NCBI GenBank assembly: GCA_900197605.1
Contig: FZLQ01000003.1
Location: 1-44,510, forward strand
DNA: 44,510 nucleotides
Reading direction: 5' to 3'
Source: Phyllobacteriaceae bacterium Water-Bin73
GTDB lineage: Bacteria; Pseudomonadota; Alphaproteobacteria; RS24
Made by a program: the position numbers and the translations under genes. The notes beneath the pieces are model-generated. The model made no database searches, had not been told where the DNA came from, and saw nothing but the letters and a program-made list of their open reading frames with translations. Shown here in pieces: positions 21,184-27,964 of this stretch; the stretch's first letter is position 1, and every line of letters begins with the position of its first letter.

Positions 21184-22059
21184 CTAGTTTTTCAAGACCT
21201 CAACCAAAGTCGTGCCCAAAGAGGCCGGCGATGGTGAGACCGTGATACCGGCCGAGCGCATGGCTTCCATTTTATCGTCAGCCCCGCCCTTGCCACCGGC
21301 AATAATCGCACCGGCATGGCCCATGCGACGCCCCGGAGGCGCGGTGACACCGGCGATAAAGCCGACCATTGGTTTTTTGACTTTTGATGCTTTCAAAAAC
21401 TCAGCCGCTTCTTCTTCTGCCGAGCCGCCAATTTCACCGATCATGATAATGCTTGTCGTTTCATCATCGCCGAGGAATAAATCCAAGCAATCAATAAAAT
21501 TTGTGCCATTGACCGGATCGCCGCCAATACCGATACAAGTTGATTGGCCAAGACCGGCAGCTGTGGTTTGCGCCACGGCTTCATAAGTCAATGTGCCTGA
21601 ACGCGAAACAATGCCGACCGAGCCGCGGCGGTGAATATGGCCGGGCATAATACCGATTTTGCACTCATCAGGGGTGATGACGCCCGGGCAATTCGGGCCG
21701 ACAAGACGCGTGTTCGAGCCGTCAAGGGCGCGTTTGACCCTAATCATATCGCTGACCGGAATCCCTTCAGTGATACACACGGCCAATTCAATACCCGCCT
21801 CTATGGCTTCCAAAATCGCATCGGCAGCAAAGGGCGGCGGCACATAAATGGCCGATGCCGTTGCGCCGGTTTTATCCACGGCCTCGGCAACCGTATCAAA
21901 TACCGGCAGGTCGAGATGGGTTGCGCCACCGCGACCGGGGGTCACGCCGCCAACCATTTTCGTGCCATAGGCAATTGCTTGCTCGGAATGGAATGTGCCT
22001 TGCGAGCCGGTAAAGCCCTGACAGATTACTTTTGTGTCCTTATTGACCAGAACCGACAT
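21184..22059 (-). CDS. sucD: SucD, succinyl-CoA synthetase alpha subunit
   Basis: SucD is the subunit that is phosphorylated on histidine and binds CoA; with SucC it converts succinyl-CoA to succinate while making ATP or GTP. The 291-residue length is normal. The CoA-binding Rossmann part starts with [38 protein letters not shown] and [17 protein letters not shown] are typical. The phosphorylated His248 lies in [15 protein letters not shown]. Its start codon shares one base with the sucC stop (TAATG), so translation of the two subunits is coupled, as expected for a stoichiometric complex. Confidence 0.97.
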
Positions 22060-23228
22060 TATGCAGCCTCCTTCACAGCAGCGACGATTTTTTCGGCTGC
22101 ATCATTTAAATCATCAGCGGCAATAATCGGCAGGCCCGAATTGGCCATAATCTCTTTGCCCTCATCGACATTTGTGCCCTCAAGGCGCACCACCAAAGGC
22201 ACTTCGAGGCTTAATTCTTTGGCCGCCGCGACAACGCCTTCAGCGATAATATCGCAGCGCATAATGCCGCCGAAAATATTGACCAAAATGCCTTCCACAG
22301 AATCATCTGACAAAATGATTTTGAACGCTTCAGTTACTTTCTCTTTGGTCGCCCCGCCGCCGACATCAAGGAAATTGGCAGGCTCGGAACCATAAAGCTT
22401 AATAATATCCATGGTCGCCATTGCCAGACCGGCGCCATTGACCATGCAGCCGATTTTGCCATCGAGCTTGATATAGGACAGGTCATATTTGGACGCTTCA
22501 ATCTCAGCCGGATCTTCTTCCGCCAAATCGCGCAATTCGACAATATCTTGTTGCCGATACAGCGCATTGGAATCGAAATTCACTTTCGCATCGAGGCAAA
22601 TTAAATCACCCGCGCCGGTAACCACTAGCGGGTTAATTTCGAGCAGCGACATATCTTTTTCGACATAGGCTTTATACAGATTGGCAATCAGCGCATTGGC
22701 TTGTTTGACCTGCGCGCCTTCAAGTCCCAAAGCGAAAGCGATTTGGCGGGCATGATGGCCGGAAATGCCACCGGCCGGGTCAACGCTCACCGTGATGATT
22801 TTCTCAGGGGTTTTTTCCGCAACCTCTTCAATATCCATACCGCCTTCGGTTGAAGCGATGAAAGAAACCCGCGAGGTGGCGCGGTCAACCAGCGCCGAGA
22901 GATAAAGTTCGCGAGCAATATCAGACCCTTCTTCGACATAGATACGGCCCACCTCTTTGCCCTCAGGGCCGGTTTGGTGGGTGACCAAGGTCATGCCCAA
23001 CATGCGGGTCGCTTCAGCGCGCACCTCATCAATGGATTTCACCACAGTGACGCCGCCGCCTTTGCCGCGTCCACCGGCATGGATTTGCGACTTCACAACC
23101 CAAACGGGTCCGCCCAATTCTTCGGCTGCTTTAACCGCTTCATCAGCCGTAAAGGCAACATGGCCGCGCGGCACCGGGACACCGAAACTGCCCAAAACCT
23201 GCTTGGCTTGATATTCGTGAATATTCAT
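22059..23228 (-). CDS. sucC: SucC, succinyl-CoA synthetase beta subunit
   Basis: SucC holds the ATP-grasp nucleotide site and sets ADP/GDP preference. The 389-residue protein starts [22 protein letters not shown], the family opening. [17 protein letters not shown] is the ATP-grasp lysine region, [10 protein letters not shown] carries metal ligands, and [13 protein letters not shown] with [15 protein letters not shown] forms the C-terminal ligase domain. It is the first gene of sucC-sucD-sucA-sucB-lpd. A promoter-like pair lies in the 93-base gap upstream, indicating that the operon is initiated here rather than only by read-through from mdh. Confidence 0.97.
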
Positions 23229-23281
23229 GACGACTGCCCCTTACCGATGAGAGATGTGAAGGTTTCCAATTAAGATGCGGG

Positions 23282-23310
23282 AAAATAGCCTAAGCCAGCC
23301 GCCGCCTCAA
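23282..23310 (-). promoter_or_regulatory. Predicted sigma70-type promoter of sucC operon
   Basis: On the minus strand, TTGAGG (23310-23305) and TATTTT (23287-23282) are separated by exactly 17 bases. The pair lies 54-82 bases upstream of sucC and inside the gap to the MBL gene. The -10 hexamer is identical to the one predicted for ffh. Confidence 0.55.
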
Positions 23311-23321
23311 TAAAAAACATG

Positions 23322-24404
23322 CTAATCGGCAATTATGATGCTGTCGCCTTGGCTCGGTAACGTCACTCTTGTGCCTTCCAACGCCGCCAATACGCCCTCA
23401 GGGCGCAGCTCAGCGACGCCGCGCATATAAATTCTATCCATCACCGCATTTTGGGGCATTGGCGCATAATGATAAAAAACCAGCAAATCCGCATTGGCCA
23501 GATTGGCCGCCTCGGCCGCCTCGACCGGCGTGGTATGATAATCCAGCGTGTCGTCGATAATTTTCGCTAATTTGGGCTGGCCGTTTTCGGCCAATGCTGC
23601 GATGAGCGTCTTGACCAAATCGGGCTGCAAAACCTCATGAATAAGCACATCGACATTGCGCGCTGCCTCAATCAGATTATCGTCCTTCACCGTGTCGCCG
23701 CTGATCAGCACAGAGCGCCCCGCATAGTCAAAACGAAACGCCAAAGCCGGTTCAATCGGCGGGTGAGACACGGTAACGGCAGTGATTTTCAAGCCATCTT
23801 CATCATAAATCACACTGTCAGCGATAATCGGCTGCGCCACCAGACCGGCATTTTTGCTCGGCGTATAAGCCTCGCCATGATGGTCGGTGCGATAGCGATA
23901 ATCCAGCCCATAGGCGAGATTGAAACCATTGACGACTTGTTCAATGCCCGGTCCGCCATAAACGCGCAGCTTTTCAGGCCGACCGCGCACCCAGCTATTC
24001 AGATGCACCTCGCCCAAAGCGGCAATATGGTCAGAGTGAAAATGCGTCAGCAGAACTGCGCTAAGGCGTTGCATCGGCAAGCCCAAAGCGATTGCCTTAT
24101 CGGCTGAGCGCGCGCCGGTATCGACGAGAAAAAATTTATCACCGGCGAAAACGGCAACGCAAGATTGCGCCGCACCGCGCGGGCCTGCACCGCCCATCGG
24201 CGAGGCTGTGCCGCAAAACACAACATCAATTTTATCGCCGCCAAAATCATCAACCACGCTGCCCAATTGCGCCGTTAAAGCGCGTTTTACCAGCCGATCC
24301 TGCACGCCGCTATGGTTCATGATGAGCGCATAGCCGGCAAGACCCAAAAGCACGAAGACGATGGCGGCATAGCGGGCCGCAGTTTTTATCTTTTTTAACA
24401 TCAT
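23322..24404 (-). CDS. Membrane-anchored metallo-beta-lactamase-fold hydrolase (RNase Z-like)
   Basis: This 360-residue protein has one N-terminal hydrophobic segment (about 11-29), which should place the rest in the periplasm or anchor it to the membrane. The MBL fold follows. VVFCGTASPM opens the fold, and HFHSDH at 121-126 gives zinc ligands His121, His123, Asp125 and His126. ISGDT and LIHEVL supply later metal residues, with a final histidine in VFYHYAPM. The layout resembles the RNase Z/arylsulfatase-type branch, but tRNA processing is unlikely for an exported protein. The substrate is unknown. An open frame reaches 24476, but ATG 24404 follows GAGGGGGGAG and a promoter lies in the extension. 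It separates mdh from sucC, which are usually adjacent. Confidence 0.85.
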   Translation of the reverse strand: MMLKKIKTAARYAAIVFVLLGLAGYALIMNHSGVQDRLVKRALTAQLGSVVDDFGGDKIDVVFCGTASPMGGAGPRGAAQSCVAVFAGDKFFLVDTGARSADKAIALGLPMQRLSAVLLTHFHSDHIAALGEVHLNSWVRGRPEKLRVYGGPGIEQVVNGFNLAYGLDYRYRTDHHGEAYTPSKNAGLVAQPIIADSVIYDEDGLKITAVTVSHPPIEPALAFRFDYAGRSVLISGDTVKDDNLIEAARNVDVLIHEVLQPDLVKTLIAALAENGQPKLAKIIDDTLDYHTTPVEAAEAANLANADLLVFYHYAPMPQNAVMDRIYMRGVAELRPEGVLAALEGTRVTLPSQGDSIIIAD

Positions 24405-24447
24405 CACTCCCCCCTCAAATTTGGAATTGTTCTTGGGTAATCTCAAA

Positions 24448-24476
24448 ACCCTATATATTGGCACTTGGCCTGTCAA
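24448..24476 (-). promoter_or_regulatory. Predicted promoter of the MBL-fold gene
   Basis: A consensus -35 TTGACA (24476-24471, minus strand) is followed after 17 bases by TAGGGT (24453-24448). TATAGG at 15-base spacing is an alternative -10. It lies just past the mdh terminator and about 45-70 bases before the MBL start, so the gene appears to be an independent transcription unit. Confidence 0.55.
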
Positions 24477-24488
24477 TTCTTATGGCGC

Positions 24489-24518
24489 AAAAAAAGGGGC
24501 GCGGTTGCCCGCACCCCT
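24489..24518 (-). terminator. Intrinsic terminator of mdh
   Basis: Read on the minus strand, a ten-pair stem (24518-24509 with 24504-24495, one G-T pair) closes on a GCAA tetraloop and is followed by seven T residues (24495-24489). It begins about 27 bases after the mdh stop. This is the clearest one-way terminator in the window. Confidence 0.92.
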
Positions 24519-24545: not shown

Positions 24546-25511
<966 letters not shown>

Positions 25512-26788: not shown

Positions 26789-27964
26789 TTAAAGCCCCAG
26801 CGCCATTTTGGCAAGAATATTGCGCTGCACCTCATTCGACCCACCATAAATACTGGCGGCGCGATTATTCAGAAAATCCGCCAAAATGCCCTGCGTCGCT
26901 TCCGGCCCAATCGCTGCGACATTGGCCCCCATTTCGCGGCGTTCGGGTTGCCAAACGGCGGCGCGCGCGCCCAGCGCATCGACCGCCAAGCGGTCAATAT
27001 CTTGTTGCGCCTCCGTGCCCATAATTTTCAACTGCGAGGATCCGGAACTATTGGGGCGGCCATTGGCCAAAGCGGCCTGCACGCGAAACTCGGTCATCTC
27101 AACGGCGGCGACCCGAATCGACAAAGCGGCGTGACGTTGCGCCAAAGCCGCATCGCCGCTATCGGCGACCAATGTTTCCAGATTGCCCAGCATCAGCTTG
27201 AGCCGCGCCGCATAAGCCGAACTGCGTTCAAATGTCAGCAGGGTTTTGGCGACGCTCCAGCCATCATTTTCGGCACCCACGCGATTGGCGACCGGCACAC
27301 GCACATTATCGAAAAATACCTGATTGACCTCATGGTCTTGCGCCAGCGTGATAATCGGCTCAACCGAAATGCCGGGACTGTCCATTTCAATCAGCAGAAA
27401 ACTAATCCCGGCTTGCGGCTTGGTGGTTTTATCGGTGCGTACCAAACAAAAAATATGATTGGCGTGCTGGGCGTAAGAGGTCCAGATTTTCGAGCCGTTA
27501 ATAATGTAATCATCGCCGTCGCGCACAGCCGCGCATTGCAGGCTGGCCAAATCTGAGCCGGAGCCCGGTTCTGAATAGCCCTGACACCAAATATGCGCGC
27601 CCGACAAAAGCCGCGGCAAATAATATTCCTGCTGTTGTTTGGTGCCACACGCAATCAGCGTCGGGCCAATCATGCCCAGCCCCATTGGGTACAGTTTGGG
27701 CGTATTGGCACGCGCACATTCCGATTGCCAAATATAACGCTGCATATCGCTCCAGCCCGTGCCGCCAAATTCTTGCGGCCAACCGGGCGCAACCCAGCCT
27801 TTGGCATGAAGGATTTTATGCCAGCGCATCAACGGCACATGGGCCGATGAAATGCCGCTGGTTTTTTCACCGGCTTCGCGCAATTCCGCGTCGAGATGCT
27901 CATCGAGAAAGGCGCGCACCTCTTGGCGAAACGCTTCGTCTTCAGGCTTTAACTGCATGTCCAT
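26789..27964 (-). CDS. Acyl-CoA dehydrogenase family protein
   Basis: This is a 391-residue FAD enzyme that introduces a trans-2 double bond into an acyl-CoA and passes electrons to ETF. Visible motifs are GWPQEFGGTGWS, WCQGYSEPGSGSDLASLQCAA (flavin site) and YIINGSKIWTSYAQHANHIFCLVRTD. The C-terminal motif is YGGSNEVQRNILAKMALGL. In medium-chain enzymes the catalytic Glu precedes the last Gly of a YEG motif. Here it is YGG, as in a large family of bacterial enzymes with the base elsewhere. Chain length and physiological substrate cannot be read from the sequence. It is shorter than methylsuccinyl-CoA dehydrogenase, so it should not be taken as that ethylmalonyl-CoA-pathway enzyme. GGGGAG precedes the ATG. 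Confidence 0.93.
   Translation of the reverse strand: MDMQLKPEDEAFRQEVRAFLDEHLDAELREAGEKTSGISSAHVPLMRWHKILHAKGWVAPGWPQEFGGTGWSDMQRYIWQSECARANTPKLYPMGLGMIGPTLIACGTKQQQEYYLPRLLSGAHIWCQGYSEPGSGSDLASLQCAAVRDGDDYIINGSKIWTSYAQHANHIFCLVRTDKTTKPQAGISFLLIEMDSPGISVEPIITLAQDHEVNQVFFDNVRVPVANRVGAENDGWSVAKTLLTFERSSAYAARLKLMLGNLETLVADSGDAALAQRHAALSIRVAAVEMTEFRVQAALANGRPNSSGSSQLKIMGTEAQQDIDRLAVDALGARAAVWQPERREMGANVAAIGPEATQGILADFLNNRAASIYGGSNEVQRNILAKMALGL

Follow-up and report, generated by a model that had tools for sequence, protein, structure and literature searches.

Two kinds of described system lie nearest to the locus considered here. In gene order, it resembles the mdh-sucCDAB operons of the Rhizobiales, which PMC4052901 presents as predicted targets of PckR; the order is that found in our window (the whole stretch of DNA analyzed, 44,510 nucleotides), one MBL-fold gene aside. 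Compared with those operons, the block in the window is split by this extra gene, which has a palindrome of its own, and by a terminator-like hairpin after mdh.

In fold, three kinds of solved structure come close to a model of the MBL protein. The arylsulfatase 8gyg of Pseudoalteromonas atlantica T6c, related to AtsA of SulfAtlas S4, is the top profile match among solved structures (2e-32) and shares the fold over 280 residues (Z 33.0, rmsd 2.7) as well as the HxHxDH motif. Identity over those 280 residues is 24%, whereas the S4 yardstick of at least 30% refers to another sequence, AtsA (P28607); the MBL protein also differs in its N-terminal hydrophobic segment and conserved cysteine pair, and a sulfatase role is putative. 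The HxHxDH pattern that PMC5066984 gives as a criterion for SulfAtlas S4 arylsulfatases is present in the MBL protein. The metallo-beta-lactamase PNGM-1 (6j4n and variants) is tied with 8gyg in the fold comparison (Z 31.9-32.6 over 290 residues) and comes first in Foldseek and in the single-sequence search (1.8e-19), but identity is ~24-25% and the MBL protein falls under all beta-lactamase model cut-offs. Ribonuclease Z (4gcw, 2cbn) shares the fold and the HxHxDH motif and ranks below both (Z 29.4-30.3); only 250-253 residues align, and the MBL protein, with its hydrophobic N-terminus, lies under every RNase Z cut-off. The best reading of these comparisons is that of a predicted two-metal hydrolase in the branch of the MBL fold that holds AtsA-type arylsulfatases, PNGM-1, and RNase Z.

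We propose that the gene encodes an anchored, periplasm-facing hydrolase of an uptake-and-degradation regulon, and that it stands ahead of sucCDAB-lpd by ancient inheritance, an account that we regard as somewhat probable. It would give a testable function and a regulatory context to an anchored branch of MBL-fold proteins that reaches no named-family cut-off. It would also illustrate how a conserved neighborhood can mislead, as the common palindrome directs attention to the breakdown of external compounds rather than to the TCA cycle.

The mdh-MBL-sucC locus and its product

The window is contig C79 of a 1.79-Mb genome in 157 contigs (G000). Its MBL gene (23322..24404; ATG at 24404, stop ending at 23322) encodes 360 amino acids and lies, as originally predicted, between mdh, the malate dehydrogenase gene (24546..25511; Pfam Ldh_1_N and Ldh_1_C), and sucC (22059..23228; ATP-grasp_2 and Ligase_CoA), all three on the minus strand. 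After sucC, ORFs that we take as sucD, sucA, sucB, and lpd, named from their order without a domain scan, extend to 15255. The strong ribosome-binding site of the original prediction is visible as a G-rich stretch, GAGGGGGGAGTG, before the MBL ATG, and its strong terminator after mdh corresponds to a minus-strand hairpin at 24518-24495 with 10 pairs, eight of them G-C, followed by six T. This is the longest stem in a hairpin scan of the window that is at chance level overall (nine found against 8.9 expected in shuffles). Similar hairpins follow mdh in most genomes examined, 13 of 17 in the window's family and 9 of 10 in a second family, f10 (10 of its 26 linked loci were examined); none was found at this place in G080 or G350.

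The gap between the MBL gene and sucC (23229..23321, minus strand) measures 93 bp. A terminator-like hairpin was found there in none of 17 family members, the window included, nor in G080, where the two frames overlap by ~4 bp, nor in G350; it occurs at 3 of the 10 f10 loci, which speaks against read-through in those cases. A promoter of its own had been claimed for sucC, and the consensus scan lists no promoter-like site in the gap, weak evidence that still leaves room for one. Because a hairpin follows mdh and neither a terminator-like nor a promoter-like site was found before sucC, the MBL gene probably starts its own transcript, and transcription may continue from it into sucC.

The transmembrane segment that had been called corresponds to a hydrophobic stretch at residues 12-29 (24318..24371, minus strand), which differs in charge at its two flanks and falls within helix 2-30 of the structure model (ten sequences; mean pLDDT 83.3). 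A hydrophobic N-terminal stretch is found in 42 of 44 anchored homologues, the exceptions at the start chosen being G017 and the gammaproteobacterial row, and in 36 of the 44 the net positive charge is greater before the segment than after it. The zinc site is complete, as had been stated: HFHSDH at residues 121-126 (24027..24044, minus strand) is joined by H214, D237, H290, and H312, and seven of these eight metal or active-site residues, the whole HxHxDH motif among them, are invariant in 44/44 anchored homologues, with H214 in 43/44.

Cys64 and Cys82, whose codons form the ends of 24159..24215 on the minus strand, are both present in 42 of the 44 and both missing in the other two; neither occurs in any of eight more distant rows. 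Since they are kept or lost together, we take them as a likely disulfide pair formed in an oxidizing place, the periplasm, a pairing backed by just two losses. On this view the N-terminus would sit in the inner membrane and the catalytic domain would face the periplasm.

Conservation of the position beside mdh and sucC

Searches of 289 genomes across the class matched mdh in 228 and sucC in 233, with the best 150 places of each listed. When all the best 150 mdh places and 139 of the best 150 sucC places are entered, mdh and sucC lie on one strand within 6 kb in 111 of the 124 genomes having both, in line with the expectation that the two genes usually adjoin in Alphaproteobacteria. The gap is shorter than 350 bp in 84 genomes and at least 700 bp in 19 of the 111; five of these wide gaps contain an MBL gene and 14 contain other ORFs (assigned by eye). 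As other genes also occupy it, the gap appears to take in genes from time to time, and a place within it says little by itself about function. In family f4 (G030, G165, G263; L089, L090, L095), for instance, the gap is occupied by one or two ORFs resembling, by eye, GNAT acetyltransferases.

Within the order of the window (one family, 28 genomes), a close orthologue of 57-100% identity is found in 18 genomes, the window's included, and it lies between mdh and sucC in 17 of them, across three genera. In the eighteenth, G018, the mdh-sucC gap is 199 bp and the MBL gene lies on another, 14-kb contig; the gene seems further from its counterparts in the genus than mdh and sucC are from theirs, and the contig may be a binning error. 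The six genomes of genus g3 have a gap of ~200 bp and a more distant MBL protein (36-41%) elsewhere, and G015 has a gap of 193 bp and a weak MBL match only. The latter protein (L040) has, by eye, a lipoprotein-like N-terminus and is ~26% identical to the window protein over the aligned part. The remaining three genomes, 73-79% complete, have no MBL match and likewise no match to mdh or sucC.

Beyond this family, 30 of the 289 genomes drawn across the class match at E 1e-30; 25 of the 30 matches are of the anchored type (E 1e-45 or better), and among these 25, seven are mdh-linked. In family f10, 29 of 40 genomes have a match, and in 26 of the 29 it lies within 1.5 kb of mdh and/or sucC. Both matching genomes in the order of G080 (four genomes) are linked, as is G350, and G163 has the order zapE-MBL-mdh. 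The MBL gene is thus found next to mdh and/or sucC in several families despite divergence of the protein to ~40-48% identity. In a separate observation, five genomes of genus g15 (L065 6139-7413; L076, L157, L159, L165) carry two related small ORFs between the MBL gene and sucC (192 and 207 amino acids in L065, with no Pfam match at 1e-6); G315 carries one.

On a 64-row protein tree (omitting 11 of 54 extracted rows and adding 21 of 29 further loci), linkage to mdh requires four state changes, against a shuffled mean of 20.4; an earlier 52-row tree, built without two of the 54 rows, requires three. A tree of mdh and sucC from 31 genomes requires five, with G080 as a long branch. One starred group of the MBL protein tree, clade A, holds 17 never-linked rows and stands apart from all linked rows; the survey of the gap that had been suggested shows linked orthologues in several families and this branch, which is never linked. 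The position ahead of sucCDAB-lpd appears to be ancient and inherited, and the trees are compatible with one origin of the linkage or with several.

The MBL gene gives dN/dS values of 0.14, 0.18, and 0.21 between the window and three relatives; the corresponding values are 0.02-0.08 for sdhB, mdh, and sucCDA and 0.13-0.14 for zapE. Its codon use and GC content (0.545; GC3 0.593) fall inside or close to the span of 11 neighboring genes, which answers the comparison that had been called for. A recent insertion, one of the two origins first offered, is refuted by the position conserved across families, the ordinary codon use, and purifying selection; the other, a conserved accessory hydrolase, is supported, with linkage in 17 of 18 family genomes and 26 of 29 f10 genomes.

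The palindrome and the genes that share it

The TTGACA upstream of the MBL gene had been read as part of a promoter. The hexamer is present, but our promoter scan lists no sigma-70-type site there, and an alignment of upstream regions from four genomes shows it conserved as half of TTGACA-N7-TG(C/T)CAA. The 19-bp palindrome at 24458..24476, of the form TTGRCA-N7-TGYCAA, is the only exact copy in the window, and we propose it as the operator of the MBL gene. Within 260 bp upstream, and allowing one mismatch, it is found at 30 of 46 mdh-linked MBL loci (21 exact), at 5 of 26 unlinked loci (one exact), and at none of seven MBL genes of the more distant kind, where shuffles give 0.04, 0.04, and 0.01; partial or duplicate loci (among them L026, L027, and L038-L041) are left out of these counts. 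At the other 16 linked loci, G350, G080, and G163 among them, it carries two or more mismatches.

A weight matrix built from 35 upstream sites finds eight sites in 311,989 bases around unlinked homologues, five of which are training sites. The eight lie beside the MBL gene, ahead of the gene preceding it, or between sulfatase and GST operons; of the three new ones, one separates the TetR-sulfatase operon of G018 from the GST operon, and two precede the gene in front of MBL in G208 and G078. Two of the eight are inside called ORFs; in G250 this is an ORF of 99 amino acids, and in G142 it is the over-long beginning of the MBL frame. Across 185,012 control bases the matrix detects no site, and within the window it recovers just the one already known. 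A looser rule, allowing one mismatch, has a single match in each of three of the 12 control stretches and adds two places in the window, and a rule allowing two gives 17 matches in the window against 8.2 expected; since the looser rule also matches controls, only near-perfect copies are telling.

Where mdh and sucC stand without an MBL gene, a matrix site is absent from 31 of 32 loci in 30 genomes (G030 and G117 entered twice); the sole exception, in G078, is inside a TetR-like coding ORF unrelated to the TetR of the cluster described below. The palindrome goes with the MBL gene and not with sucC, and on the strength of these MBL-free loci we reject it as a sucC operator.

A scan of 80 stretches of the window's own genome (858,503 bases, 48%) returns six matrix sites, every score above 19, against 0.33 expected. 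Two are on contig C82, one lying between a TonB-dependent receptor and an alpha/beta hydrolase, the other separating a GST from a PF00884 sulfatase whose N-terminus is hydrophobic. Two more are ahead of a thiolase and of another alpha/beta hydrolase, both also falling in short overlapping ORFs, and the last two, inside large ORFs (a Mur ligase and an ABC ATPase), are probably chance. The C82 genes are orthologues of a cluster in G018, with identities of 77% for the GST, 78% for the hydrolase, and 69% for the sulfatase as far as the contig extends, and that cluster contains the G018 MBL gene with its own palindrome. The same G018 contig holds a TetR gene, an aromatic-ring hydroxylase, an iron alcohol dehydrogenase, and an acyl-CoA dehydrogenase. 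An acyl-CoA dehydrogenase is also present in the window, at 26789-27964 between zapE and sdhB, and is 83% identical to that of G018 (L070 5630-6826). As the MBL gene and the acyl-CoA dehydrogenase both occur on the G018 cluster contig, two genes of that contig are found among TCA genes in the window.

The neighborhoods of unlinked homologues have a similar composition. GST, DSBA, and sulfatase clusters occur at seven, six, and five of 24 unlinked loci, and any of them at 11/24 against 0/12 control loci; these classes were chosen once the data had been seen, several loci come in pairs from one genus, the G015 locus carries the more distant MBL protein, and gene calls came from a simple composition score. 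In a Pfam tally of neighbors within three genes at 20 of the 24 loci, GST_N_3, DSBA, and Sulfatase account for seven, five, and three of 112; they are outside the 25 families shown for 105 control proteins (107 drawn, less two very long ones), so that each occurs there at most once. Our literature search, which covered few subscription journals, returned no description of the MBL gene, the regulon, or the palindrome.

In the account that we prefer, the hydrolase, anchored through its N-terminus in the inner membrane, its catalytic domain toward the periplasm, would act in the uptake and breakdown of external organic compounds, probably ester- or sulfate-bearing. The regulon would include the TonB receptor, the membrane-anchored PF00884 sulfatase, the GST, the alpha/beta hydrolases, and the thiolase. 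Substrates would be taken up and relieved of sulfate or ester groups outside; glutathione- and hydrolase-dependent steps and thiolysis would follow inside, and acyl-CoA products would thus be delivered to the TCA cycle. A regulator would bind TTGRCA-N7-TGYCAA where it overlaps the promoter. Its type, perhaps TetR, is a guess from a TetR gene next to the sulfatase in two genomes, G018 and G017. The sampled 48% of the window's genome yielded no relative of that gene. The MBL gene would have been placed between mdh and sucC long ago and then retained, and its promoter may add suc transcripts at the same time, as no terminator was found between MBL and sucC.

A bolder extension, which we offer tentatively and consider doubtful, is that this undescribed regulon (operator TTGRCA-N7-TGYCAA; TonB uptake, periplasm-facing sulfatase and MBL hydrolase, GST, and hydrolases) couples the arrival of external substrate, via the MBL gene at the head of sucCDAB-lpd, to the level of the 2-oxoglutarate-to-succinate steps of the TCA cycle. 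Read-through into sucC, if true, would be a simple coupling of substrate uptake to TCA capacity.

That the block is kept across families is just as compatible with a genuine link to the TCA genes. The hydrolase might serve the cycle or its regulation directly, selection keeping the gene between mdh and sucC; its place beside one or both genes in proteins as little as ~40-48% identical, the lack of a terminator before sucC in 17/17 family members, and the overlapping frames of G080 would all agree. We nevertheless judge such a role unlikely, given an N-terminal segment and paired cysteines that suggest the periplasm, a palindrome that accompanies the MBL gene rather than sucC, the unlinked clade A and G018, and the other genes that fill the 14 wide gaps in other lineages. 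The link to the TCA genes implied at first is less strong than the retained position would lead one to expect; the palindrome ties the gene to sulfatase, GST, and hydrolase genes.

Similarly improbable is a neutral passenger, an ancient insertion that persists by inheritance only and works with neither the TCA genes nor the sulfatase set. The 19 wide gaps among 111 genomes, 14 of them holding other ORFs, would agree with it, but active-site residues that do not vary, dN/dS of 0.14-0.21, and a conserved palindrome common to catabolic genes speak against it.

Family assignment of the hydrolase

The MBL protein is above the gathering cut-offs of Pfam Lactamase_B (2.8e-17; 63.8 bits against 22.7) and Lactamase_B_2 (2.2e-15; 57.3 bits against 27), and no named-family cut-off of NCBIfam is reached. 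A GntH MBL hydrolase model scores 119.8 against 333. That the protein is a beta-lactamase or a quorum-quenching lactonase finds its support in PNGM-1, deposited as a metallo-beta-lactamase and among the closest solved relatives; we think it very improbable, since the scores are far under the cut-offs of the subclass B3 model (11.8 against 240) and of the lactonase models AidB and YtnP (13 against 360; 12.2 against 425), and the other palindrome-bearing genes look catabolic.

That the MBL protein serves the genome as its RNase Z, or as some other enzyme of tRNA processing, as its best NCBIfam score (ribonuclease Z model NF000806) and the absence from the genome of any protein passing the TIGR02651 cut-off might suggest (5/14 control genomes are likewise without one), we reject as barely credible, for it scores far below the RNase Z cut-offs (145.1 bits against 363; 70.5 against 292.95 for TIGR02651), has a hydrophobic N-terminal segment, has unlinked homologues that cluster with sulfatases and GSTs, and ranks closer in fold to the arylsulfatase and PNGM-1.

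The same genome encodes a second MBL-fold protein, of 313 amino acids, on contig C87 (L106 1304-2245), after an ORF that by eye resembles adenylate cyclase; its matches to RNase Z and cyclic-nucleotide phosphodiesterase models are weak, all below cut-off.
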